Origin: an uncultured Bacteroidota bacterium
GTDB taxonomy: Bacteria; Bacteroidota; Bacteroidia; Bacteroidales; P3
Assembly: GCA_902800395.1 (NCBI GenBank)
Contig: CADCEC010000002.1
Coordinates: forward strand, 1 to 64,000
DNA: 64,000 nucleotides
Reading direction: 5' to 3'
The notes under the pieces are model-generated. The model saw only the letters and a program-made list of their open reading frames with translations. It did not search any database and had not been told where the DNA came from. Positions 19,793 through 55,182 of this stretch are shown one piece after another (within the stretch, counting starts at the first letter, position 1; the number at the start of each line of letters is the position of its first letter). Made by a program: the position numbers and the translations under genes.

Positions 19793-22042
19793 ATGAAAAA
19801 GCATATCCTGATAATCCTTTCACTTTTCACTTTTCACTTTTCACTTTTTACTTCATTGTCGGCTCAAAGCCATTGGGTGGACTCGGTGATGAACACCCTG
19901 TCGCTTGAGGAGCGCATCGCACAGTTGATGGTGGTGCGTGTGCCGCTGGATATGGATGACAGCCAAGCTGCCGATTTTTCAAAGACGATGAGCGGCTATA
20001 AGGTGGGGGGCGTCTGCTTTTTTGTCGGCACTGCCGAGAGGCAAGCTGCAATGACGCAACGTTTCCAGAAAGACGCCAAGGTGCCGCTGCTGGTATGCAT
20101 CGATGGTGAATGGGGATTGGGAATGCGATTGAAGGACATGTACAGTTTCCCACGCAATGCGGTCTTCGGTCAGCTTGACCATTATGCTGACAGCATTGTC
20201 TACCGTATGGGAGAGGAGATTGGCCGCCAGTGCCGCATGATGGGTATCCATATCAACTTCGCTCCTGTGGTGGACATCAACTCCAACCCCAAGAATCCCG
20301 TGATAGGCACCCGCTCCTTCGGTATCGACCGCGAACGTGTCAGCCAGCTGGGTATCATGTATACTCTTGGGCAGCAGAGTCAAGGAGTGATGGCGGTAGC
20401 CAAGCATTTCCCTGGACACGGTGACACCGACAAGGACAGCCACCTCGAGTTACCCGTCATCAACCACTCTCGCGAGTATATCGACACCATCGACACCTAT
20501 CCCTTCAAACGCCTCATCAAGGCCGGTGTGGGAGGTGTGATGGTGGCCCATCTGCAGGTGAACGCCTATGACAAGCAGCGTCCTTCGTCACTCAGTCCTG
20601 TGATAGTCACCGACTTGCTGAAAAAAAAACTGGGTTTTGATGGTCTGGTGATTACCGATGGCATCGACATGAAAGGTGTTACCAACACTTATGGTGGTGG
20701 GCAGGCCGAGTTGGCAGCTATACGTGCCGGCAACGACATCATCCTGCTGCCGCCCGATGTGCCGCAGTCGATAAAGACCATCAGTGAGGCTGCACAGAAC
20801 GACAAAGAATTGCGCGAACAGATTGACTACCACTGCCGTCGTGTGCTCGAAGCCAAATACAAGCTTGTGCTACCGTATATTAAGGATAAGATAGTCGTCC
20901 CCGGTGACGACCGCCGTGCTGCCTGCGACGAGATTGTGGCCGAGCTAAACCTCCATCTTGACCGTCGTATCGACTCTGTGGTGAACAACGCTATAGCGGC
21001 AAAGGCGATGCCGGGATGCCAGATTGTGGTGCTCCACAAAGGGAGGAAGATACTTGACAGAACCTATGGACATTTGACCTATGACAAAGGTGCCGACACC
21101 GTGACCCGTCAGACGCTCTACGACCTCGCATCGGTCACCAAGGTCTGTGCCACCACACTGGCGGTGATGAAGCTGGTGGACATTGGGAAGCTGAAGATTG
21201 ACGACCGGCTGAGCAAATATCTGCCGTACCTGAAAGGTACCGACAAGGAGCATATCACCATCAAACAGGCCATGAGCCATTGTGCCCGACTGAAGGCTTT
21301 CGACAGTTACTGGCAGAAAGCCTCGGACTACGATGGCATCCTCCAATTGGTTGTCGCCACACCGTTGCTCAAGAAGGAAGGTATGGTATATAGTGACCTG
21401 GGATTCATGCTGCTGAGCGATGTGGTGAGACATGTGAGCGGCAAGCCCCTCGACCGCTTTGTGGAGGAGCATTTTTACCACCCCATGGGGCTTATTCATA
21501 CGGTCTTCAATCCTATCGCGATGTTGGGTCCCATGCACTCGCTCCATATGATTGCGCCTACCGAGATCGACAGCCTTCGAGGACTTATCCGTGGTACCGT
21601 CCACGATCCCAATGCTTTCGCCATGGGTGGCGTCAGTGGACATGCGGGACTCTTCTCCAATGGTGAAGAGGTGGCTGAGTTGATGCAGATGCTGCTGGAC
21701 GGCGGGGTCTACAAGGGTCACCGCTTCCTGAAGCAGAAGACTGTCGAGACCTTCACCAGTCGCCATTATGCCAAGCATAATAACCGTCGTGCGTTGGGAT
21801 TCGACAAGCAGCTCTTCAATCCCTCAGGCAACGCGCAGGTGTGTAAAGAAGCCTCGCAGGCCTCCTTCGGACATACCGGCTTCACGGGCACCATGGTGTG
21901 GGTTGACCCCGAGTACGACCTCGTCTACGTTTTCCTCTCCAACCGCGTGCATCCTACGGCGACCCCCAACCTCTTGGCCCGCATGAATGTCCGTACCGAC
22001 ATCCAAACTATACTTTATCAATACTTAAAAAATAACTTTTAA
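19793..22042 (+). CDS. Glycoside hydrolase family 3 / serine beta-lactamase-like fusion
   Basis: A 749-aa exported protein. Residues ~30-370 are GH3 of the beta-N-acetylhexosaminidase (NagZ) type, with KHFPGHGDTDKDSHL and GLVITDGIDMKGV, the latter carrying the usual nucleophile aspartate. Residues ~390-749 are a class C beta-lactamase/penicillin-binding-type domain with S-V-T-K (SxxK), Y-S-D-L and H-T-G-F-T-G. This fusion is known in Bacteroidota and suggests muropeptide recycling or wall turnover. The signal peptide hydrophobic core (SLFTFHFSLFTSLSA) is encoded by TTTTCAC repeats at 19818-19850. Confidence 0.92.
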   Translation: MKKHILIILSLFTFHFSLFTSLSAQSHWVDSVMNTLSLEERIAQLMVVRVPLDMDDSQAADFSKTMSGYKVGGVCFFVGTAERQAAMTQRFQKDAKVPLLVCIDGEWGLGMRLKDMYSFPRNAVFGQLDHYADSIVYRMGEEIGRQCRMMGIHINFAPVVDINSNPKNPVIGTRSFGIDRERVSQLGIMYTLGQQSQGVMAVAKHFPGHGDTDKDSHLELPVINHSREYIDTIDTYPFKRLIKAGVGGVMVAHLQVNAYDKQRPSSLSPVIVTDLLKKKLGFDGLVITDGIDMKGVTNTYGGGQAELAAIRAGNDIILLPPDVPQSIKTISEAAQNDKELREQIDYHCRRVLEAKYKLVLPYIKDKIVVPGDDRRAACDEIVAELNLHLDRRIDSVVNNAIAAKAMPGCQIVVLHKGRKILDRTYGHLTYDKGADTVTRQTLYDLASVTKVCATTLAVMKLVDIGKLKIDDRLSKYLPYLKGTDKEHITIKQAMSHCARLKAFDSYWQKASDYDGILQLVVATPLLKKEGMVYSDLGFMLLSDVVRHVSGKPLDRFVEEHFYHPMGLIHTVFNPIAMLGPMHSLHMIAPTEIDSLRGLIRGTVHDPNAFAMGGVSGHAGLFSNGEEVAELMQMLLDGGVYKGHRFLKQKTVETFTSRHYAKHNNRRALGFDKQLFNPSGNAQVCKEASQASFGHTGFTGTMVWVDPEYDLVYVFLSNRVHPTATPNLLARMNVRTDIQTILYQYLKNNF
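19818..19850 (+). repeat. TTTTCAC repeats forming a signal-peptide core
   Basis: Four to five TTTTCAC-type heptamers lie within codons 9-20 of the GH3 fusion gene and encode alternating Phe/Ser/Thr/His/Leu. Confidence 0.7.
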
Positions 22043-32457: not shown

Positions 32458-33729
32458 ATGAACAATAAAAATATAACCCCCTGTGCTGTGAATGTGGCTT
32501 CCGAGACCGGGACACTGCGTGCTGTGCTGTTGCATCGACCTGGTGTGGAGATTGAGCGCATGACGCCCCTGAATGCCGCCCACGCCCTTTACAGCGATAT
32601 CCTCAACAAGCCCATTGTCGACAACGAATACTCGAATTTCTGCGGCGTACTTGAGAAGTGGACGAATGTCTATTATGTTGAAGATATTCTCGAAGAACTA
32701 CTGAAAGACAATGATATACGCCGCCACCTTGTCTATGAGAGCTGCGATATGGACAATTGCGACGATGGACTCGCCGAGCAGTTGATGAGCTTCGATGCCA
32801 AGCAGTTGGCGGATGTTCTTATTGAAGGATATGAGGATCCGGAGTGGGGAGTGGAAAGTGGAAAGTGGAAAGAGGAAAGTGAGGAGCGGTATTTGCTGAA
32901 GCCGCTCTACAATCTTTTCTTCACCCGCGATGCCTCTTCGACGGTTTACAATCGCGTGTTGATTAACTCGATGAGTTTCGAGGTTCGTGAGCGCGAGACC
33001 CTTATCTACGAGGCTATCTTCAAGCATTTCTTCAAAGTGGAAACCCTCAACGCTATGGCTTGGGATCGCGATGCCCGCACTGAGGGCGGCGATGTGCAGA
33101 TTGCTTCGCCCGACCTGCTCTGCATTGGTCAAGGTATCCGTACCAACACCAAGGGTATCAAATATCTGGCGCAGACTTTTGCCAAAGAACGAGAGAAATT
33201 CAACATCTTGGTACAGGAACTGCCCAAGAGTCCCGAGAGTTTCATCCATCTCGACATGGTGTTCACCTTCCTTGGCAAGCACCAGTGCATGGCTTTCGAA
33301 CCCATGCTGAAGAAGACGGGCCTCTTTGCTGGTAAGGACACTACACTGATTTCTATAGAGAAAGGCAATATCAGCTACAAAAAGTTCCCCAATATTGTGA
33401 AGGGACTGGAGAGTTTGGGTTGGGACATCGAGCCCGTTATCGGTGGCGGCAGCGACCCGTGGGTGCAGCTGCGTGAGCAGTGGCATTCGGGCTGCAACTT
33501 CTTCTCCATGGGCGACGGCAAGATTATCGGTTACCGCCGAAATACGCAGACCATCGAGGCGTTGGACAAGGCAGGTTTTGCAGTACTCAATGCCGAAGAT
33601 ATTGTGAGCGGCAAGGTGAACATGAAAGACTATGAGAAGTTCGTCGCCGCCTTCCCCGGCAGCGAATTGCCGAGAGCCGGCGGAGGTGCTCGCTGCATGA
33701 CGATGCCGATATTGAGGGATAATGGTTAA
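32458..33729 (+). CDS. arcA: Arginine deiminase
   Basis: A 423-aa guanidino-modifying enzyme that hydrolyses L-arginine to citrulline and ammonia. Motifs include L-L-H-R-P-G, F-F-T-R-D-A, E-G-G-D-V, H-L-D-M-V-F and the C-terminal GGGARCMTMP with the catalytic cysteine. A GTGGAAA heptamer insertion (32848-32880) adds GVESGKWKEESEE at about residues 130-142 without changing frame. Carbamate kinase and ornithine carbamoyltransferase genes are not adjacent, so the arc pathway is not clustered here. It is the first gene after a strong promoter and probably monocistronic. Confidence 0.93.
   Translation: MNNKNITPCAVNVASETGTLRAVLLHRPGVEIERMTPLNAAHALYSDILNKPIVDNEYSNFCGVLEKWTNVYYVEDILEELLKDNDIRRHLVYESCDMDNCDDGLAEQLMSFDAKQLADVLIEGYEDPEWGVESGKWKEESEERYLLKPLYNLFFTRDASSTVYNRVLINSMSFEVRERETLIYEAIFKHFFKVETLNAMAWDRDARTEGGDVQIASPDLLCIGQGIRTNTKGIKYLAQTFAKEREKFNILVQELPKSPESFIHLDMVFTFLGKHQCMAFEPMLKKTGLFAGKDTTLISIEKGNISYKKFPNIVKGLESLGWDIEPVIGGGSDPWVQLREQWHSGCNFFSMGDGKIIGYRRNTQTIEALDKAGFAVLNAEDIVSGKVNMKDYEKFVAAFPGSELPRAGGGARCMTMPILRDNG
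32848..32880 (+). repeat. In-frame GTGGAAA repeat in arcA
   Basis: Three to four GTGGAAA units encode VESGKWKEES. Confidence 0.88.
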
Positions 33730-36700: not shown

Positions 36701-37185
36701 AACGTTGGGGTAGTCTCGACAAGGATATCTACATCGACCCCGTGAGTCGCGAGCAGTTCGTCCCGCGTCTCTACCAGACGGTTGTCCTTTTGGCACGAGA
36801 GGAGAACATCCTCGGAAACAAGGATAAGGCGATGAAGTTGCTGGAACTCTACCACAAGAACTATCCCAACAAGAACTTCCATCCCGATAACATACCGCCT
36901 CAGTATGTCGAGATATATTATGCCATCTATGGCGACGAGCATATCGACAAAGTGAAGGAGACATGGTCTTGGATGTTCGACTACCATAGCGCATTGGCCA
37001 AATACTATGCCAGTTTCCAAGGCGAGAAGAAGGCCGGCGTCGAGAGCGAACTTGTCCACTCCCTGCAGATGGTTGCCTATCTGCAGAAGTTTGCCTCCGA
37101 TACCCTTAAGGATGCCGAACTCTCCAAAAATGCCGAAGAAGTCCTGCAACGCTATACACCCTCAGATTTGCTCGCATCCAAATGA
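33784..37185 (+). CDS. DUF2723 polytopic membrane protein (putative glycosyltransferase)
   Basis: A 1133-aa protein with about a dozen hydrophobic segments in the first ~700 residues and the DUF2723 hallmark ASWWDCGEYIATANKLQVGH. DUF2723 is linked to GT-C/protein O-mannosyltransferase-type enzymes and is common in Bacteroidota. Motifs D-N-D-T-F-P and P-P-C-Q-P-R-E-R-D-Y-A-F are visible. Near residues 933-952 a four-cysteine zinc-ribbon-like element appears (C-S-N-C-G ... C-P-K-C-E). TPR-like helices follow at the C-terminus. The stop overlaps the next start (ATGA). The exact acceptor and donor are unknown. Confidence 0.85.
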   Translation: MDKNFFKLTNPSLTRGILVLILGMLVFSMGLGTFGTFLGLLCLAYGVYEAVKFSQESKNAVVGRPAWKKEAQPETEVQGCGLKSYHRVDNILGLVVGVVACAVYIMTAEATASWWDCGEYIATANKLQVGHPPGAPSFQLLGRLFSMFSDQADVAHAVNVMSAVCSGLTIMFLYWGITLLAKHLLPDPKNVSLRDARTWAVFAAGLVGAFAYCYSDSFWFSAVEGEVYAMSSFFTALVFWAILKWEEQSDDKHSMRWIVLISLLVGVAIGVHLLNLLTVPAIFYVVYFKKWPKVTWKGFLLTGVLSFVTLALILWAIIPGIVNLDSAFDVFFVNTLGLPFNSGTIFYFVLLAALVVWGLWFSQKKKRPVLNAAIMSFAMLVIGYSTFFILVIRANTNTPLNENAPKDAVAMRAYLGREQYGETPLLTGHYFTETPVDMEKGYTKYVRGKDENGNDRYIPAAYDMKYVYNSPSHFLPRMWSTQRDVHPLYYRFWTDGYVDSPDDPTMGDNITFMNRYQFGWMYWRYFMWNFAGRQNDQQGHYFNTDGTRDYLKGNWICGINAIDETRLGPQDNLPDFMKNDKSRNVYYLLPLLLGLIGLIYHVVKHPNDAFIVVLMFIMTGMAIAFYLNMPPCQPRERDYAFVGSFSFFAIWIGLGVMGLAEWISDLFKEKKEKVYKVVMPVVFVLCFLGVPCLMACQNWDDHDRSEKTAARDFAENYLNSVKKNGVLITFGDNDTFPLWYAQEVEGTRTDVRILNYTLSGMYWYVEQLYNKLYESEPLPFTLTKDFYGLGQDQVALEQSGNYREVTEVLAEVREHPEKFMRRTMAGDEILVIPTNRFQITLDIPALEEAGVIPAELVGKVDSVIRWEIKKQLIGRHELMLLDIVGTNKFMRDINIGYPKQSGIDKIFPDIMEYSIMDGLNYKLVPYRSDRVFTCSNCGIMYRQNYVCPKCEKTASDWRLYTETSADYFLNDVKRWGSLDKDIYIDPVSREQFVPRLYQTVVLLAREENILGNKDKAMKLLELYHKNYPNKNFHPDNIPPQYVEIYYAIYGDEHIDKVKETWSWMFDYHSALAKYYASFQGEKKAGVESELVHSLQMVAYLQKFASDTLKDAELSKNAEEVLQRYTPSDLLASK

Positions 37186-37430
37186 GAAAAGAGAAGAAAC
37201 CTAAGCTGAAGAAGTACACCCTCACGCTCTCTGAGCGTGAGGCCCTTCGGCTCGGCCGCTATGCCAACGCCACCGGCGTGAGCCGTCCGCTGGCCCTGCA
37301 GCGTCTGATGAAGCAAGCTTTGCGTGAGGCCGCGGACCTGCCAGTCGGCAAGGAGGATACCAATCAGCTAGGACTCTTCGACACACTACAGATTGACATC
37401 TTCAACAACGCTGCTGTTGTGAAGGAATGA
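37182..37430 (+). CDS. Small basic protein, ribbon-helix-helix-like
   Basis: An 82-aa protein whose ATG overlaps the DUF2723 stop. It reads YTLTLSEREALRLGRYANAT then SRPLALQRLMKQALREA, a beta strand followed by two helices, similar to MetJ/Arc-type ribbon-helix-helix DNA-binding proteins. The lysine-rich start (RKEKKPKLKK) fits nucleic-acid binding. The function is not known. Confidence 0.6.
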   Translation: MRKEKKPKLKKYTLTLSEREALRLGRYANATGVSRPLALQRLMKQALREAADLPVGKEDTNQLGLFDTLQIDIFNNAAVVKE

Positions 37431-37439
37431 AAAAAGGAG

Positions 37440-37458
37440 TGCCGGCTTCCAACCGGCA
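37440..37458 (+). terminator. Hairpin between the small basic protein gene and atpB
   Basis: TGCCGG (37440-37445) pairs with CCGGCA (37453-37458) over a 7-nt loop. There is no U tract, so termination is doubtful. Confidence 0.35.
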
Positions 37459-37476
37459 TAAAAGATGTATGACAAA

Positions 37477-38541
37477 ATGAAAAAGGTATTTGTTTTTTTG
37501 CTTACGGCATTCTTTATGTCCATCCCGCTCACTTCCCGGGCAGAAGAAGGCAATGAGATTGATGCAGGATCGGAGATTATCGGTCATGTCACCGATGCCC
37601 ACTCGTGGCATCTGTTCGACTATGTGTCGGACGGTGAGACCCACTCGGTAGCGGTGCCGCTGCCTGTCATCCTTATCAATGACGGACATCTCGACATCTT
37701 TATGTCGTCGAAGTTCGAACATGGACATGCCTCCTACAAAGGCTATAGCCTTGTGGGCGGTGGCTCCGAGAAGGAGGAGATTGTCTACACCGATGCCAAC
37801 GGTGTGGTGAGCAAGCCTTTCGACCTCTCCATCACCAAAACGGCAGCGGCAATCATGGTTTCCGTCATCCTGCTGATAGTCATTGTGATGCTCGCGAAAA
37901 AAGGCTACAAGAAGCGCCCCAATCAGGCACCGCACGGCTTACAGAGCCTTGTGGAGATGCTTGTGGTTTATGTACGCGACAGCATTGTCCGTCCGATGAT
38001 TGGTGAGGCCAAGTACCAGAAATACCTACCGTACCTTCTTACACTCTTCTTTTTCATCTTTTTTAGCAACATTCTGGGACTTATACCTATCTTCCCAGCT
38101 GGTGGCAACATCAGTGGCAATATCGCTGTCACCGCCACGCTGGCAGTCATCACCTTCCTCATCACCAATATCAGCGGTAACCGTCACTATTGGACCGATA
38201 TCTTCAATACCCCCGGCGTTCCCGCATGGCTGAAGATATTCCCTCTGATGCCGTTGGTAGAACTCATGGGTGTCTTTACCAAGCCCATCGTGCTGATGAT
38301 TCGTCTCTTTGCCAATATGACGGCTGGTCATATTGTCATACTCGGTTTCATCTTCCTCATCTTCATACTCAGCAACCTCTTCGGTACCCTTGTTGGCGGT
38401 GGTGTCACTCTAGTGAGCATCTTCTTCAGCGTCTTCATCTCGCTGCTCGAGTGCCTGGTGGCCTACCTGCAGGCCTTCGTCTTCACCATGCTTACCTCGC
38501 TATATATCGGTATGGCCGTCGAGACGCCGCACCACGCATAA
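37477..38541 (+). CDS. atpB: F0F1 ATP synthase subunit a
   Basis: A 354-aa (Bacteroidota-type, N-terminally extended) ATP synthase a subunit, the proton or sodium half-channel. A cleavable signal-like N-terminus (KVFVFLLTAFFMSIPLTSRA) precedes a ~100-residue extracytoplasmic domain. The membrane part contains the essential arginine in LMIRLFANMTAGH and QAFVFTMLTSLYI. ATG 37465 is an alternative start four codons upstream. No atpE/atpF genes follow: the next genes are a four-helix-bundle gene and pgk, so this subunit is separated from its usual operon partners here. The stop codon lies in the arm of a 34-bp inverted repeat. Confidence 0.93.
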   Translation: MKKVFVFLLTAFFMSIPLTSRAEEGNEIDAGSEIIGHVTDAHSWHLFDYVSDGETHSVAVPLPVILINDGHLDIFMSSKFEHGHASYKGYSLVGGGSEKEEIVYTDANGVVSKPFDLSITKTAAAIMVSVILLIVIVMLAKKGYKKRPNQAPHGLQSLVEMLVVYVRDSIVRPMIGEAKYQKYLPYLLTLFFFIFFSNILGLIPIFPAGGNISGNIAVTATLAVITFLITNISGNRHYWTDIFNTPGVPAWLKIFPLMPLVELMGVFTKPIVLMIRLFANMTAGHIVILGFIFLIFILSNLFGTLVGGGVTLVSIFFSVFISLLECLVAYLQAFVFTMLTSLYIGMAVETPHHA

Positions 38542-38572
38542 AGTTTAAAGTTTAAGGTTTAAAGTTTAAAGT
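38539..38572 (+). repeat. Left arm of a perfect 34-bp inverted repeat
   Basis: About four and a half TTTAAAG heptamers (one variant TTTAAGG) form an exact reverse complement of 38954-38987. The arm includes the atpB stop and the first two bases of the GTG start of the enclosed gene. Confidence 0.92.
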
Positions 38573-38954
38573 GGCTGACGCAGAAAATAGCACAATTACA
38601 TTTTCTTTTGAAAGATTGGAGGCATACATACAAGCCAGAGGTCTTGTGAAGGAAATCTATAAACTCCAAAGATGTTTTCCGAAGGAGGAAAAATATGCTC
38701 TTGGAGACCAAATACGACGTGCTGCCACTTCGATAACCGCAAACATCGCCGAAGGATGTGGACGTAATTCCCCTAAGGAAAAAGCCCGATTTATAGAAAT
38801 AGCGTTTGGCTCATTGACAGAAGTGTTTAGTGAGTTGCAAATAGCACAAGATTTAAAATATATTACTGAAAATGATCTAAATAATCTTAGGCCATATTTC
38901 TCTCAGGTAGCGAAAATATTATCAGGCCTTCGTAAATCTTTGTCTACGGACTAA
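38571..38954 (+). CDS. Four-helix-bundle protein (S23/Avd-like, TIGR02436 type)
   Basis: A 127-aa protein with the family hallmark Q-I-R-R-A-A-T-S-I-T-A-N-I-A-E-G-C-G followed by A-R-F-I-E-I-A-F-G-S-L-T-E-V-F-S-E. Related proteins sit in 23S rRNA intervening sequences and as Avd in diversity-generating retroelements; nucleic-acid or reverse-transcriptase binding is known for Avd. The start must be GTG 38571, as no other start precedes the conserved part. The gene extends exactly from one arm to the other of a perfect 34-bp inverted repeat, and is more AT-rich than atpB and pgk. It looks like an inserted cassette. Confidence 0.85.
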   Translation: MADAENSTITFSFERLEAYIQARGLVKEIYKLQRCFPKEEKYALGDQIRRAATSITANIAEGCGRNSPKEKARFIEIAFGSLTEVFSELQIAQDLKYITENDLNNLRPYFSQVAKILSGLRKSLSTD

Positions 38955-38999
38955 CTTTAAACTTTAAACCTTAAACTTTAAACTTTAAACTTTAAACCC
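38954..38999 (+). repeat. Right arm of the 34-bp inverted repeat plus extra heptamers
   Basis: 38954-38987 is the exact reverse complement of 38539-38572. CTTTAAA units continue to 38999, just before pgk. Confidence 0.92.
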
Positions 39000-39007
39000 A
39001 TATCAAT

Positions 39008-40204
39008 ATGAAATCAATTAAAGATATCAATTTTGCAGGCCGCAAGGTGCTGCTGCGAGTGGACTTCAACGTCCCCATGAATGACCAGAAGCAGATTACC
39101 GACGACACCCGCATGCGCGAGTCGATGCCCACCATCGAGAAACTTCTCAAGGACGGTGCCGCCATCATCATCATGGCCCACTTTGGCCGTCCCAAGAAAG
39201 GCGGTTTCGAACCCGAACTGACCCTCGAGCCAGTGGCTAAGTACCTCGAGACCCTTGTGAATCGCCCCGTGAAGTTTACCCAGGAGCTCCTCGGCAGCGG
39301 CAAACCTGAGCAAATGGCTAAAGAATTGAAGGGTGGGGAAGTGATGCTACTGGAGAATATCCGCTTCTACCCCGAGGAAACCAAGGGCGGCGAGGAACTC
39401 GCCCGCCAGTTGGCAGCCCTTGGAGACTGCTACATCAACGATGCCTTCGGTGCCGCTCACCGCGAGCATTCGTCGACCGCTGTCATCGCCAAGTTCTTCC
39501 CCAATGACAAATACTTCGGCTTCCTCATGGAAAACGAGGTGCGCAACCTCGAGAAACTGATGCAGAATCCACCGCGTCCCTTCACCGCCATCATTGGTGG
39601 CAGTAAAGTCAGTTCCAAGATTGGTATCCTGGAGAACCTCCTCGACAAGGTCGACAACATGATTATCATCGGTGGCATGCGCTACACCTTCACCAAGGCC
39701 CTAGGTGGCAAGATTGGCAACAGCATCTGCGAAGACGACAAGCTTGATTTGGCCCGCGAGCTCATGCGCCGCATGGACGAGAAGGGCGTGAAGTACTACC
39801 TGCCCGTCGATAGCGTCATTGGCGACAAGTTTGGAAACGACGCCAATACCCAGATTGTTCCCTCAGGCGAGGTTCCCGACGGCTGGGAGAGCATGGACTG
39901 TGGTCCCGAGAGTTGCAAGGCCATCCACGACATCGTGATGAACAGCAAGACCATCCTTTGGAACGGCCCCGCCGGCGTCTTCGAGTTGGAGACCTTCGCC
40001 AAGGGCACCAAGGCCATCGCACAGAGCGTTGCCGAGAGTTGCAAGCAGGGCTGCTTCGCCGCCGTCGGTGGTGGCGACAGTGTGGCTGCCGTCAAACAAA
40101 TGGGCATCGCTGACCAGATGAGTTATGTCTCCACAGGTGGCGGTGCTATGCTCGAGTACCTCGAAGGCAAGGTCCTCCCTGGCATCAAAGCCATCCAGGA
40201 CTAA
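39008..40204 (+). CDS. pgk: Phosphoglycerate kinase
   Basis: A 398-aa glycolytic enzyme transferring phosphate between 1,3-bisphosphoglycerate and ADP. It shows LLRVDFNVPMND (16-27), M-A-H-F-G-R-P, the FTAIIGGSKVSSKIG hinge region, L-W-N-G-P-A-G-V-F-E and the nucleotide-binding GGGDSVAAV. The length is normal. Its leader is entirely a CTTTAAA heptamer array that belongs to the inverted repeat around the preceding gene, so that element may influence its translation or transcription. A strong terminator follows. Confidence 0.97.
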   Translation: MKSIKDINFAGRKVLLRVDFNVPMNDQKQITDDTRMRESMPTIEKLLKDGAAIIIMAHFGRPKKGGFEPELTLEPVAKYLETLVNRPVKFTQELLGSGKPEQMAKELKGGEVMLLENIRFYPEETKGGEELARQLAALGDCYINDAFGAAHREHSSTAVIAKFFPNDKYFGFLMENEVRNLEKLMQNPPRPFTAIIGGSKVSSKIGILENLLDKVDNMIIIGGMRYTFTKALGGKIGNSICEDDKLDLARELMRRMDEKGVKYYLPVDSVIGDKFGNDANTQIVPSGEVPDGWESMDCGPESCKAIHDIVMNSKTILWNGPAGVFELETFAKGTKAIAQSVAESCKQGCFAAVGGGDSVAAVKQMGIADQMSYVSTGGGAMLEYLEGKVLPGIKAIQD

Positions 40205-40225
40205 TCGATTAACTCGGAAAAAAGT

Positions 40226-40259
40226 AGAGGGGCTCCCGTTGGAAGCCCCTCTGTTTTTT
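40226..40259 (+). terminator. Rho-independent terminator of pgk
   Basis: AGAGGGGCT (40226-40234) pairs perfectly with AGCCCCTCT (40244-40252), then GTTTTTT. Confidence 0.9.
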
Positions 40260-40266
40260 CACTGTA

Positions 40267-40824
40267 TTATTCAGCCCACCTGACGTAGTCGGTTTTGCGG
40301 GGCAGGGGAGAGGGGATGGACTTGGCGGGATAGCCGAGGACGAGGTGGTCGATGCCCTCGTAGTCGCCTTCAATACCCAGCTCGCGGAGCAGGGCTTTGC
40401 CTTCTTCGGAGTCGAACTCCTCCTTGGCGCGGTGAATCCAGCAGGAAGCCAGACCCACGGCTTCGGCGGCATTGGCGAGGTTGGTGAGCACGGCGCAGCC
40501 GTCGTAGAGGTAGGTGGGCACCTTGCGGTCGGCGAGGACCAGCAGCACCACGGGGGCGCCGTAGAAGGGATCGATACCCTCATGTGGCGTGCCGCCGCGC
40601 TGGACGGTTAACTCATTCCAGATACGGGCATTCATCTCCGAAAGCTTGTCGCGCAGGTCTTTGCGTGTGATGGCCACGATGATGGGACTCTGCTTTCCGT
40701 GGCCTGTGGGAGCCCATGTGCCAGCTTCGCATACTTTCTCGATGAGCGCGCGCTCGGGCATCTGCGAAGAAAAAGCGCGGCAACTGCGTCGCGCTTTCAT
40801 ATTGTCAAGAGCTTGAGTGTTCAT
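40267..40824 (-). CDS. Nitroreductase-family FMN oxidoreductase
   Basis: A 185-aa nitroreductase-fold protein. It starts with MNTQALDNMKARRSCRAFSS, the typical R-R-S-x-R-x-F FMN-phosphate element, followed by A-P-T-G-H-G-K-Q-S and, late in the protein, E-A-V-G-L-A-S-C-W-I and LGYP. Such enzymes reduce nitro or other unsaturated groups with NAD(P)H; the substrate is unknown. Its ATG overlaps the stop of the upstream lipoprotein gene (ATGA), so the two form a minus-strand operon. It converges on the pgk terminator. Confidence 0.9.
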   Translation of the reverse strand: MNTQALDNMKARRSCRAFSSQMPERALIEKVCEAGTWAPTGHGKQSPIIVAITRKDLRDKLSEMNARIWNELTVQRGGTPHEGIDPFYGAPVVLLVLADRKVPTYLYDGCAVLTNLANAAEAVGLASCWIHRAKEEFDSEEGKALLRELGIEGDYEGIDHLVLGYPAKSIPSPLPRKTDYVRWAE

Positions 40825-52490: not shown

Positions 52491-53545
52491 CTCCTAAAGA
52501 ACAAGGATACTACATGCCCGCTGAATGGGCAAAGCACGAGGCCACATGGCTCACTTATCCCAAGAACCCCGACTCTTGGCCCGGAAAGATAGAGACCATC
52601 TATCCCTCCTATCATCTCTTTGTCAAGACACTGGCGGAGTGCGAGATGGTGCATATCAATGTCGACGACGACACGATGCTGCAGCATGTCAAGAAAGAAC
52701 TCCATGCTATCGGCACCAATATGCAGAACATTACCCTGCATCTCATTGCCAGCAATGATGCCTGGTGCCGTGATCACGGCCCCGCCTTCCTACTTAACCA
52801 TAATAATAGCAATCGGGCAATTGTCAACTGGAATCACAATGCCTGGGGTGGCAAGTACCCCTATGAGCTTGATACCCAAGTGCCCGTACGAATCCACGAA
52901 TATTTAGTGGAAAGTGGAAAGTGGAAAGCGGAAAGTCTGTTCACTCCCAACATTGTGATGGAGGGCGGAAGCATCGATGTCAACGGCTGTGGCGACCTCC
53001 TCACCACTACCTCGTGCCTCCTCAACCCCAACCGCAATCCGCAACTCAATCAGGATCAGATAGAGAACTACCTTCGCGACTACTACGGTGTGGAAAATAT
53101 CATCTGGTTGGGCGACGGCATTGTGGGCGATGACACCGACGGCCATGTCGACGACCTCTCGCGCTTCGTCGCGCCCGACACCATCGTTACCGTCGTCGAA
53201 GAAGATGCCTGGGACGAGAACTATGAGCCCCTGCAGAAGAATCTTCGAATGCTCAACCGTTGCCGCCTCGCCAACGGCAAACAACCCACCATTGTTGAAC
53301 TTCCCATGCCCGACATCGTCTTCTATGACAACCAGCGCCTCCCGGCTTCCTACGCCAACTTCTACATTGCCAATGGAAAGGTCATTTTTCCCACCTATCG
53401 TTGCCTCGCCGACAATCAGGCCGCCTACATCCTCGAAGCCCTCTTCCCCGACCGCGAAATCATCGGCATCGACTCCACCGACATCATTTGGGGGCTCGGC
53501 TCTTTCCATTGCCTTTCGCAGCAAATGCCATCAATAATGAACTAA
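52487..53545 (+). CDS. aguA: Agmatine deiminase
   Basis: A 352-aa enzyme hydrolysing agmatine to N-carbamoylputrescine, the step before AguB. It shows EWAKHEATWLTYP, WCRDHGPAFL, GGSIDVNG, G-H-V-D-D-L and the C-terminal catalytic cysteine in GLGSFHCLSQQMP. A GTGGAAA insertion (52907-52937) adds VESGKWKAES at about residues 141-150. The same peptide appears in the udp-like and arcA genes. A minus-one-style repeat (AAGTAAGAATTAAG) fills the space after the stop. Confidence 0.95.
   Translation: MTPKEQGYYMPAEWAKHEATWLTYPKNPDSWPGKIETIYPSYHLFVKTLAECEMVHINVDDDTMLQHVKKELHAIGTNMQNITLHLIASNDAWCRDHGPAFLLNHNNSNRAIVNWNHNAWGGKYPYELDTQVPVRIHEYLVESGKWKAESLFTPNIVMEGGSIDVNGCGDLLTTTSCLLNPNRNPQLNQDQIENYLRDYYGVENIIWLGDGIVGDDTDGHVDDLSRFVAPDTIVTVVEEDAWDENYEPLQKNLRMLNRCRLANGKQPTIVELPMPDIVFYDNQRLPASYANFYIANGKVIFPTYRCLADNQAAYILEALFPDREIIGIDSTDIIWGLGSFHCLSQQMPSIMN
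52907..52937 (+). repeat. In-frame GTGGAAA repeat in aguA
   Basis: Four GTGGAAA/GCGGAAA units encode VESGKWKAES. Confidence 0.88.
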
Positions 53546-53574
53546 GAAGTAAGAATTAAGAGTTAAGAATTACA
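53546..53574. repeat. AAGTAAGAATTAAGAG repeat tract
   Basis: Same family as the tracts at 13273-13299 and 19763-19792, directly before the S41 protease start. Confidence 0.6.
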
Positions 53575-55182
53575 ATGAAAAAGATTCTTCTGTTAGCAGT
53601 TTTTTCACTTTCCACTTTTTACTTTTCATTTTCACAGCCTCCCATCATCCCTGATACCCTCACCGCTGGGCAGATACGTGTCGACGAGGTGATGAAACTC
53701 ATCGACGGCAACTACACCGAGGCTCCCGATATGGACAAGCTTTCCACCGAGGCTATCAACGCCATGTTCAAAGCCCTTGACCCCCACAGTACTTACATTC
53801 CCGCCAAGGATGTGGAGCGTGCAAACGAAGGTCTGCAGGGCAATTTCGAAGGCGTGGGCATCTCGTTCCAGATTGTTGAGGACACCATTGTTGTACAATC
53901 GGTCATCGCCGGCGGCCCCTCCGAGAAGGTAGGACTCGAGGTGGGCGACAAACTCATCCGCATCGACGGTGAGCCCGCCACGGGCGATAGCATCAACAAC
54001 CAGTTTGTATTCAAACACCTGAGAGGTAAAAAGGGTACAGTCGTCACCCTCGACATCCAGCGACAAGGCTCCATCTACACCTTCGAAATCACGCGCGATA
54101 AGGTACCCATCTACTCCATTGACACCTGGTTCATGTCCGACGACACCATCGGCTACATTCGCCTCATCCGCTTTGCCCGTACCTCCGTCGACGAATTCCG
54201 CAAAGCACTCTCTTCCTTACAGAAACAAGGCATGAAAGCCCTTATCCTCGACCTTCGTGGCAATACCGGCGGCTTCCTCGACATTGCCTACAATCTCGCC
54301 AACGAGTTTCTCGACCGCAACCAGCTCATAGTCTATCAGGAAGGTCGTCGCACACCGCGTCAGAATTACCGCTCCAATGGGCGTGGGAAATTCCGTGCTG
54401 AGCGCAAAGATGACAAAATTATCGGCAACCGTCTCGTCGTCCTCATCGACGAAGGCTCTGCCTCTGCCTCCGAGATTGTCTCGGGAGCCGTGCAAGATTG
54501 GGACCGCGGTACCATCATCGGTCGCCGCTCCTTCGGTAAAGGACTCGTACAGCGCATGTTCCAGCTCTCCGACGGCGGACAGATACGTCTCACCACCGCC
54601 CGTTACTACACCCCCTCGGGTCGCTGCATCCAGCGCCCCTACGATGCGGGATCCGATGCTTACCGAGACGATATTTCTGATCGTTACAAGCATGGTGAGC
54701 TCGTCAATGCCGACTCTATCCATTTCGCTGACTCGTTGAAATACAAGACTGCTGGTGGCCGAACTGTCTATGGTGGTGGCGGCATCATGCCCGATATTTT
54801 CGTCCCCATGGACACCATGCGCCTCTCCGACTATTTCATCTCGCTGCGTGGCAAAGGTCTACTCAACAGTGTGCCCCTACAATGGGCCGACAGCCACAGG
54901 AAAGACCCCGAGGTGAAGACCTTCGAACTCTTCCTGCAGCACTATGACAGCTTTGGCATCGACAAGATTCTCGCCGATGCTGCCATTGAGAAAGGTGTGG
55001 TGCGAGACACAGAGAAAGAGGCGCAAGAACCTGAACGCACGAAACATAGCGACAACTATCTACGTATGATGCTCAAAGCCCAAGTCGCCAAAGACCTCTT
55101 CGGCATCGAGTACTACTACAAGGTGATGAAGGATTCCGACGAGCCCTACCTCCGCGCCCTCGAAGAGCTTCGGAAGAGATAG
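53575..55182 (+). CDS. S41 C-terminal processing protease
   Basis: A 535-aa exported protease. The signal peptide (KKILLLAVFSLSTFYFSFSQ) is partly made of TTTTCAC-type repeats. A PDZ domain (EGVGISFQI, VGLEVGDKLIRIDG) is followed by the S41 domain with DLRGNTGGFLD, the nucleophile serine in GSASASEIVSGA and the lysine in R-S-F-G-K-G-L-V-Q. It trims C-termini of envelope proteins. The gene lies between two ACTATAGTC repeat tracts together with aguB-aguA. Confidence 0.94.
   Translation: MKKILLLAVFSLSTFYFSFSQPPIIPDTLTAGQIRVDEVMKLIDGNYTEAPDMDKLSTEAINAMFKALDPHSTYIPAKDVERANEGLQGNFEGVGISFQIVEDTIVVQSVIAGGPSEKVGLEVGDKLIRIDGEPATGDSINNQFVFKHLRGKKGTVVTLDIQRQGSIYTFEITRDKVPIYSIDTWFMSDDTIGYIRLIRFARTSVDEFRKALSSLQKQGMKALILDLRGNTGGFLDIAYNLANEFLDRNQLIVYQEGRRTPRQNYRSNGRGKFRAERKDDKIIGNRLVVLIDEGSASASEIVSGAVQDWDRGTIIGRRSFGKGLVQRMFQLSDGGQIRLTTARYYTPSGRCIQRPYDAGSDAYRDDISDRYKHGELVNADSIHFADSLKYKTAGGRTVYGGGGIMPDIFVPMDTMRLSDYFISLRGKGLLNSVPLQWADSHRKDPEVKTFELFLQHYDSFGIDKILADAAIEKGVVRDTEKEAQEPERTKHSDNYLRMMLKAQVAKDLFGIEYYYKVMKDSDEPYLRALEELRKR
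53601..53635 (+). repeat. TTTTCAC/TTTCCAC units in the S41 signal peptide
   Basis: Degenerate heptamers encode SLSTFYFSFS. Confidence 0.6.

Follow-up and report, generated by a model that had tools for sequence, protein, structure and literature searches.

An S23 gene between mirror-image heptamer arrays as a candidate minimal mobile cassette in a Bacteroidales genome

Between the atpB and pgk genes of an uncultured Bacteroidota bacterium of the order Bacteroidales (GCA_902800395.1, contig CADCEC010000002.1), a small gene of the S23 four-helix-bundle family is enclosed by a perfect inverted repeat made of heptamers. We analysed this locus within a window of 64,000 nt, which is the whole stretch studied and belongs to contig C2 of the source genome; all coordinates are positions in this window, and L-numbers and G-numbers denote the loci and genomes compared. 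The locus is probably one copy of a minimal selfish element, which we term the S23 cassette and which consists of an S23 gene between mirror-image tandem arms. We found that the gene together with its own arms forms a unit that some genomes have and others lack at a given site, and that recurs at unrelated sites with the same or a related arm unit. Furthermore, the unit has decayed relatives, namely a copy with an internal deletion, palindromes without a gene and single arms.

The cassette and other armed S23 loci

Sequence comparison bore out the first-pass annotation, which had described a perfect 34-bp inverted repeat of TTTAAAG heptamers with one matching variant unit and a gene running from arm to arm. 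Positions 38539-38572 and 38954-38987 were 100% reverse-complementary over 34 nt, with 381 nt in between. Both arms were built of TTTAAAG-type heptamers (TAAAGTT...), and the single variant unit, TTTAAGG/CCTTAAA, was present in both. The GTG start of the S23 open reading frame (ORF) shares two bases with the left arm, the right arm begins with the final base of its TAA stop, and the atpB stop codon (38539-38541) lies wholly inside the left arm. The features of the locus are as follows.

38539..38572, + strand: left arm, about five TTTAAAG-type heptamers, with the AG-containing strand facing the gene; contains the atpB stop and overlaps the S23 start codon by its first two bases
38571..38582, + strand: GTGGCTGACGCA core, the first four codons of S23
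38571..38954, + strand: S23 / 23S_rRNA_IVP four-helix-bundle gene, 127 aa, GTG start (PF05635, 121.7 bits; TIGR02436)
38954..38987, + strand: right arm, perfectly reverse-complementary to the left arm
38953..38997, + strand: full right-hand heptamer array, AACTTTA x 6.4, stopping 10 nt short of the pgk start
37465..38541, + strand: atpB, upstream neighbour (PF00119, 186.5 bits)
39008..40204, + strand: pgk, downstream neighbour (PF00162, 508.3 bits)

The protein had been called S23/Avd-like. Its S23 identity was confirmed by a PF05635 match far above the cut-off of 33.8 bits and by TIGR02436 (117.4 bits), and the scores with the bAvd and Avd models were below their cut-offs (Avd, 24.6 of 80 bits). 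An alignment of S23 proteins (A1) showed invariant R, S, N and E residues, in agreement with the GxxRxxxSxxxNxxE motif reported for the S23/IVP proteins of cas loci (PMC3936711), and the start G/ATG-GCT-GAC-GCA was common to the window S23 and its two closest homologues, L246 and L247. The cassette was AT-rich as described, with a GC content of 0.354 compared to 0.507 in atpB, 0.564 in pgk and 0.503 in the window. It also lacked a transposase gene: S23 was the sole ORF of at least 60 aa between the arms, and a profile search of the ORFs there returned PF05635 and a sub-threshold bAvd match only. The cassette lies between two protein genes and not within 23S rRNA, with no rRNA match in 37000-40500, and an Rfam scan of the locus gave three sub-threshold matches only.

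The source genome (2.4 Mb, 21 contigs) contained nine PF05635 matches. We defined the arm score of a locus as the best local match between its upstream flank and the reverse complement of its downstream flank, and called a locus armed at a score of at least 14. Seven of the nine loci had such inverted repeats on both sides, each with its own unit: TTTAAAG, GAATTAG, AGGTGAA and AGAAGGA (7 nt), one 11-nt unit and less regular units of 8-9 nt. At one of the seven, L015, the direct match exceeded the inverted match. The two weakest family members, L016 and L017, had no arms. Two of these loci share the window with the cassette: L014 (10654-11184), a second S23 gene whose inverted flanks have an 8-nt unit and are less regular (20 nt, 90%), and the unarmed L017 (55249-55908), a diverged and longer S23-like protein of 219 aa that scored 33 bits, under the cut-off.

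Heptamer arrays as such were common in the source genome (103 arrays in 304 kb), and the window holds arrays of many further units besides TTTAAAG. Exact matches to TTTAAAGTTTAAAG numbered 67 in the genome, and the reversed control had none. However, inverted matched pairs were rare. The array detector, which did not register L014 and L015 with their less regular arms, found five pairs no more than 1.5 kb apart in the same 304 kb: this cassette, two gene-less palindromes, and two wide pairs (1.1 and 1.4 kb) around other genes. The distinctive feature is thus the matched inverted pair around an S23 gene, not the heptamer arrays. The GTGGCTGACGCA 12-mer also occurred right after an array at C1:260209 (upstream of groES) and at C2:73709; with one mismatch allowed, the core and its reversed control gave equal counts (28 each), and we therefore relied on the three exact matches next to arrays alone. 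By eye, a gene-less TTTAAAG palindrome stood between groES and groEL in L117 (contig C1), and a further array palindrome with the GTGGCTGACGCA core stood upstream of groES; the gene names there were likewise assigned by eye.

The gene-plus-arms unit was found well beyond the source genome. Two large sets of S23 loci were scored. The order set comprised 78 loci from 30 of 41 genomes of the same genus and order (38 plus the next 40 by score, among the matches listed), and its weaker matches were left unscored, a conserved S23 paralogue excepted. The many-phyla set comprised the best 80 of at least 568 relatives, which were found with six S23 query sequences, all from armed loci; the wide S23 alignment was too diverse to serve as a query. 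It spanned Clostridia, Fibrobacter, Betaproteobacteria, Nitrospirae, Acidobacteria, Elusimicrobia, candidate phyla, Bacteroidetes and others. L068 (short flank) was dropped from the order set, L209 (short) from the many-phyla set, L330 (short) from the control and L257 (truncated) from the set of close homologues, while L203 and L229 were kept despite N in their sequence. Rows with an internal stop counted towards the arm totals and entered the protein comparison with the stop as X, and were excluded from the ratio of non-synonymous to synonymous substitution rates (dN/dS).

Among these best-scoring matches, 59 of the 77 scored loci in the order set and 53 of 79 in the many-phyla set were armed, as were 21 of 26 S23 loci on viral contigs, in which L339/L340 and L353/L354 had identical S23 stretches. 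Mismatched locus pairs reached the threshold in 2.2% (order set) and 1.3% (many-phyla set) of cases. In direct orientation, 12 loci of the order set (mismatched, 0.5%) and 10 of the many-phyla set did so. Windows of equal size shifted along the same loci scored in 0/71 and 2/408 cases. The arm unit varied between loci, and the two arms of one locus matched. No rRNA match was present in the 40 of the 80 genome loci that were scanned. The conserved S23 paralogue (L016, L311-L329), which occurred in most genomes of the genus among the matches listed, was unarmed in all 20 loci scored and is perhaps a domesticated form.

These controls bear on a bystander alternative, in which, in a genome crowded with heptamer arrays, an S23 gene would come to lie between two of them by chance. 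The density of arrays in the source genome speaks for it. Against it stand the rarity of inverted matched pairs, the low rate at which mismatched pairs and shifted windows scored, the conserved paralogue at 0/20, and the arm unit of G077, AGTGGTT, all five matches of which lay at its S23 locus. Generic array clutter was rejected on these grounds, and we give it next to no credence.

S23 similarity and arm similarity were correlated (Mantel r 0.244, 0/2000 permutations; 1688 pairs among 59 armed loci with dissimilar flanks). The effect sat in the 34 pairs with more than 65% S23 similarity, in which mean arm similarity was 0.35, compared to 0.16-0.19 below 65%. Close S23 relatives at non-homologous sites thus tend to share a unit, indicating that the arms travel with the gene. 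The inverted ends are carried along as in insertion sequence (IS) elements and diverge below about 65% S23 similarity. Arm units were shared at differing sites by L010/L035/L058, L012/L082 and L025/L027; L035 and L058 are 80% and 72% homologues of the TTTAAAG cassette, and in other species they are found some 4 kb upstream of atpB rather than downstream of it. Matched inverted arms were present at 13 of the 15 scored loci of close homologues of the window S23, its own included. In G052, two S23 copies 87-88% alike occupied two sites with TTTAA-type arrays, L248 with clear arms and L260 with an arm match of 10, below the threshold. For selection on the gene, 20 pairs above 75% identity were used, of which 17 returned no dS, which was taken as saturation. 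The other three gave dN/dS values of 0.037, 0.057 and 0.072, resting on dS of 1.7-2.1, with L255 shared by two of them. S23 is under purifying selection where measurable.

Filled, empty and decayed sites

The junction of atpB and pgk was compared by searching 59 genomes, of which 51 had an atpB match; 30 junctions were retrieved. S23 was present in one of the 30, the window's own. One other junction, L116, held a different ORF between the two genes. By eye, L088 and L095 had a gene-less palindrome of another unit around GTGGCTGACGCA as its loop at this place, and L093 a similar one with a variant core.

For four further cassettes of the source genome, we looked for the flanking sequences in 12 congeners; at L011, several genomes lacked collinearity. 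At site L012, S23 was absent in 12/12 congeners, some of which had a plain short junction. G002 had a gene-less palindrome there ending GGACAA/TTGTCC, like some intact cassettes, and G012, G019 and G022 had the left arm with its leader alone. Site L013 was seen in 11 genomes and was intact in G052, internally deleted in G022, reduced to gene-less arms in G002 and without S23 in the other eight. Site L009, also seen in 11, had S23 in three, 20-bp gaps in three, short arrays in two and other sequence in two. The S23 of G052 at this site had arms unlike those of the source genome, and G062 carried a Y1/IS200-like transposase gene (L279 920..1375; PF01797, 75.8 bits). Across the loci, gene-less array palindromes were seen by eye in L277/L296, L297, L088, L095 and between groES and groEL in L117.

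The first-pass annotation had proposed a candidate mobile cassette and had named two outcomes that would speak against it: relatives keeping the gene between atpB and pgk without arms, and the same arms flanking many unrelated genes. Neither was found, and mobility on an evolutionary scale is therefore supported, with armed homologues at other sites and with empty sites. Of the 30 atpB-pgk junctions, 29 had no S23, and a target-site duplication was not seen by eye at atpB-pgk or at L009, L012 and L013, where the relatives are too diverged for base-exact comparison. At L013, the source genome and G052 were identical over the 502 bp from arm to arm and had 244 differences in the 2386 bp outside it. 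The nearest differences were 13 bp before the left arm and 12 bp after the right arm, the next one being 156 bp on. This identity would be accounted for by a recent transfer of the cassette, by gene conversion or by ordinary recombination.

The empty sites, the internally deleted copy, the gene-less palindromes and the single arms make the dispersed heptamer arrays look like cassette debris. Genomes with a close S23 homologue had a median of 20.5 GTTTAARGTTTAARG matches (n=10) compared to 1 in the others (n=49; Mann-Whitney p 0.0013), a comparison that is confounded by kinship and in which the 59% identity line was set after the list was seen. TTTAA-type arms were present in five of the ten (GTTTAARGTTTAARG counts 105, 26, 15, 150 and 3), and the others had mostly GGTTATA-type arms. 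AGTGGTT had 12, 5 and 84 matches in its three cognate genomes and 1, 4 and seven times 0 in nine others. TCAGTTR was a weak test, with 4 matches in its cognate G075 (3 at the cassette), 4 in G080 and 1 in G083. Many arrays of the window lacked a counterpart at the matching junctions of G052 and G002, and some had one.

Several observations weigh against a selfish mobile element. We observed no transposition event, and inspection by eye showed no target duplication. At L012, the gene that follows the insertion has instead lost about 20 N-terminal codons. At L013, the near-identical tract extends past the right arm and a 185-bp run free of differences lies farther upstream; with identical runs outside the cassette, ordinary recombination could explain the near-identity. 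G007, G012, G015, G023 and G068 had 38-132 GTTTAAR-pair matches and no close S23, and one genome with a close S23 had none. A quarter to a third of the S23 loci in the order and many-phyla sets stayed below the arm threshold, and since both sets consist of best-scoring matches, 59/77 and 53/79 do not extend to all S23 genes. Arm similarity exceeded 0.6 in just 12% of the pairs with more than 65% S23 similarity, indicating that arms change fast.

The mover of the cassette might instead be a retroelement or an IS200/RAYT-type transposase acting in trans, with S23 as an accessory like Avd in diversity-generating retroelements. S23 resembles Avd weakly, the Y1 transposase gene of L279 lies at exactly the junction where other species have S23, and the source genome has two Y1 matches and one RVT_1 match, the latter on contig C1 and the window on C2. 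However, G002 had 18 S23 matches, three Y1 matches and no RVT_1 match, G006 (72% complete) had 13 S23 matches with neither Y1 nor RVT_1, and G008 (88% complete) had six with neither, the S23 numbers being those among the matches listed. A reverse transcriptase or Y1 transposase as constant companion was rejected on these counts, and we consider this explanation very unlikely.

Arm grammar and proposed mechanism

The arms followed a common grammar. A period of 7 predominated, in 45/53 armed loci of the many-phyla set and 35/59 of the order set. The strand reading inward was AG-bearing and poor in C: AG exceeded CT on it in 110 of 133 armed loci and CT exceeded AG in 10 (48, 48 and 14 loci across three sets, the reverse in 3, 2 and 5). 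Four or five units were counted in 50/86 left and 60/89 right detected arrays, with a median of 32 nt. The S23 structures 2rld and 2gsc have five chains each, and S23 has been described as a homopentameric toroid (PMC4990558). From the unit counts and the five chains, our guess is that one arm unit serves one S23 subunit.

Based on this grammar, an S23 cassette would have arms of about four or five short tandem units each, mostly of 7 nt, usually with one AG per unit and with the C-poor strand inward. The S23 homopentamer may recognise the unit repeated in its own arms, with each subunit perhaps taking one unit, and may bring the two cassette ends together. An enzyme from outside the cassette, either of host replication and repair or a transposase in trans, would then copy or move the cassette into intergenic DNA. 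The arms could supply a stop codon to the preceding gene and a leader to the following one, and insertion would thereby do no harm. Under this model, 23S rRNA would be a further tolerated site, and the S23 intervening sequences (IVS) found there would be copies of the same element.

A long RNA hairpin had been offered as the alternative to mobility. As an RNA-processing unit, the arms would form a transcript stem that is cut by RNase III and maintained by selection, and S23 would be translated from the RNA or bind it. The predicted fold of 38530-39000 does contain the two-arm stem, with -123.5 kcal/mol, z -6.1 and 0/100 shuffles as good, and the Coxiella IVS is excised by RNase III at a 28-bp terminal stem, with the site at the start of the first heptamer (PMC4990558). 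However, mismatches between arms on the sense strand were 123 A-C vs 74 G-U (p 0.0006, armed loci), the wrong direction for a selected stem; the order set alone, with 36 G-U vs 51 A-C, was not significant (p 0.13). There was thus no sign that stem selection keeps the arms alike, which weakens an account by RNA stem only. A shuffle of unit order in the arms was biased, since the aligned parts had been picked for matching, and no inference was drawn from it. RNA processing also leaves the gene-less palindromes and the gene with arms at new sites unexplained, and we judge it an unlikely explanation.

S23 could also be a self-regulated RNA-binding ring, in which the pentamer would bind C-poor AG repeats in its own and other leaders, much as TRAP binds (G/U)AG repeats, and the right arm would act as a competitor that frees the leader. 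The AG-bearing repeats of mostly four or five units and the pentameric structures are consistent with such a ring, as is the position of 34/102 arrays within 60 nt upstream of an ATG ORF. However, arrays upstream of ORFs showed no strand preference (17 AG, 15 CT), and patchy presence and change of site fit a selfish element rather than a host regulator. We rate the ring slightly below the RNA-processing unit and likewise unlikely as the whole explanation; the regulator and the selfish element can both be true.

Known systems and host genes

The closest known system is the S23 IVS of 23S rRNA in Leptospira and Coxiella (PF05635), which likewise has one S23 ORF, complementary ends and a length of about 430 nt (PMC4990558). 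Directly ahead of the start codon, the Coxiella IVS carries tandem GACAGAT heptamers that have AG on their sense strand, and the S23 IVS has been called a selfish element, earlier held to have been a mobile element (PMC4990558). In contrast to the rRNA IVS, the cassette lies between protein genes, both its arms are tandem arrays, and several copies with differing units occur per genome. Furthermore, S23 is here under purifying selection, whereas the Coxiella IVS ORF is described as decaying (PMC4990558).

In RAYT/REPIN systems, a transposase gene is flanked by REPs, and gene-less hairpins of the same repeat are dispersed in the genome. The S23 cassette is similar in having a single gene between inverted short repeats together with dispersed gene-less palindromes, and in sharing a type of intergenic site, as illustrated by the Y1 gene at the L009 site in G062. 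Unlike RAYT, S23 is a four-helix bundle without a Y1 domain, and the arms are tandem arrays whose unit varies by copy. The cassette resembles IS elements and transposons in carrying inverted ends with its gene, and it differs from them in having no transposase domain. Homology of PF05635 with Avd has been suggested (PMC10053308); unlike the Avd of diversity-generating retroelements, the window S23 falls below the Avd cut-off and has no reverse transcriptase at its locus. S23/IVP genes also occur in cas loci (PMC3936711; PMC10910872).

Intergenic TAACTGA heptamers have been reported from Beggiatoaceae, Cyanobacteria and Bacteroidetes, mostly just upstream of start codons, and horizontal transmission was suggested for them, 'but no mechanism is evident' (PMC4679880). 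Their reverse complement, TCAGTTA, is a unit of the S23 arm in L213, and the terms S23, 23S rRNA and four-helix gave no hit in the text of that paper (PMC4679880). The rRNA S23 ORFs with complementary ends, the Coxiella heptamers and the mobile-element idea (PMC4990558), as well as intergenic heptamers (PMC4679880), are thus already published. A description of S23 genes outside rRNA joined with inverted tandem arms was not found in the literature searched, which consisted mostly of papers available without subscription.

We tentatively extend the selfish-element reading as follows, holding the extension with rather less than even confidence. S23 cassettes may be bacteria-wide, transposase-less mobile elements whose ring protein recognises its own array ends, and they may be the source of many intergenic arrays, some of which are now host leaders, stops or signal peptides, with the rRNA IVS as one landing site. 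If true, the rRNA S23 IVS, the function and origin of which 'remain unclear' (PMC4990558), the widespread S23 family and the spread of intergenic heptamer arrays would have a common cause. Each S23 protein would predict its own target unit, so that binding specificity is directly checkable.

Arrays were also found inside host genes. In L013 1..3300 (contig C1), the next gene has a signal peptide (MKIMPVLSRAVIALAIPFTFHLSPLTLNAQ...) translated from the right arm array, and nearby a second gene opens with a peptide of the same kind (...RHFTFHLSPFTLLCFLFLFAHAQA). It seems that host genes have acquired arrays as signal peptides in the time since sister species diverged. In the window, the leader and signal-peptide region of one gene at 53480-53680 was wholly different from that of G052, with different arrays in each and flanks 99.7-100% identical, indicating a very recent replacement. 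At 32841-32879, an array lies in frame within a 423-aa ORF and is 24 bp longer than in G052, with flanks 98-99.7% identical. At 19818-19853, a 749-aa ORF begins with the signal-peptide-like sequence MKKHILIILSLFTFHFSLFTS, which is encoded by an array of TTTTCAC heptamers.

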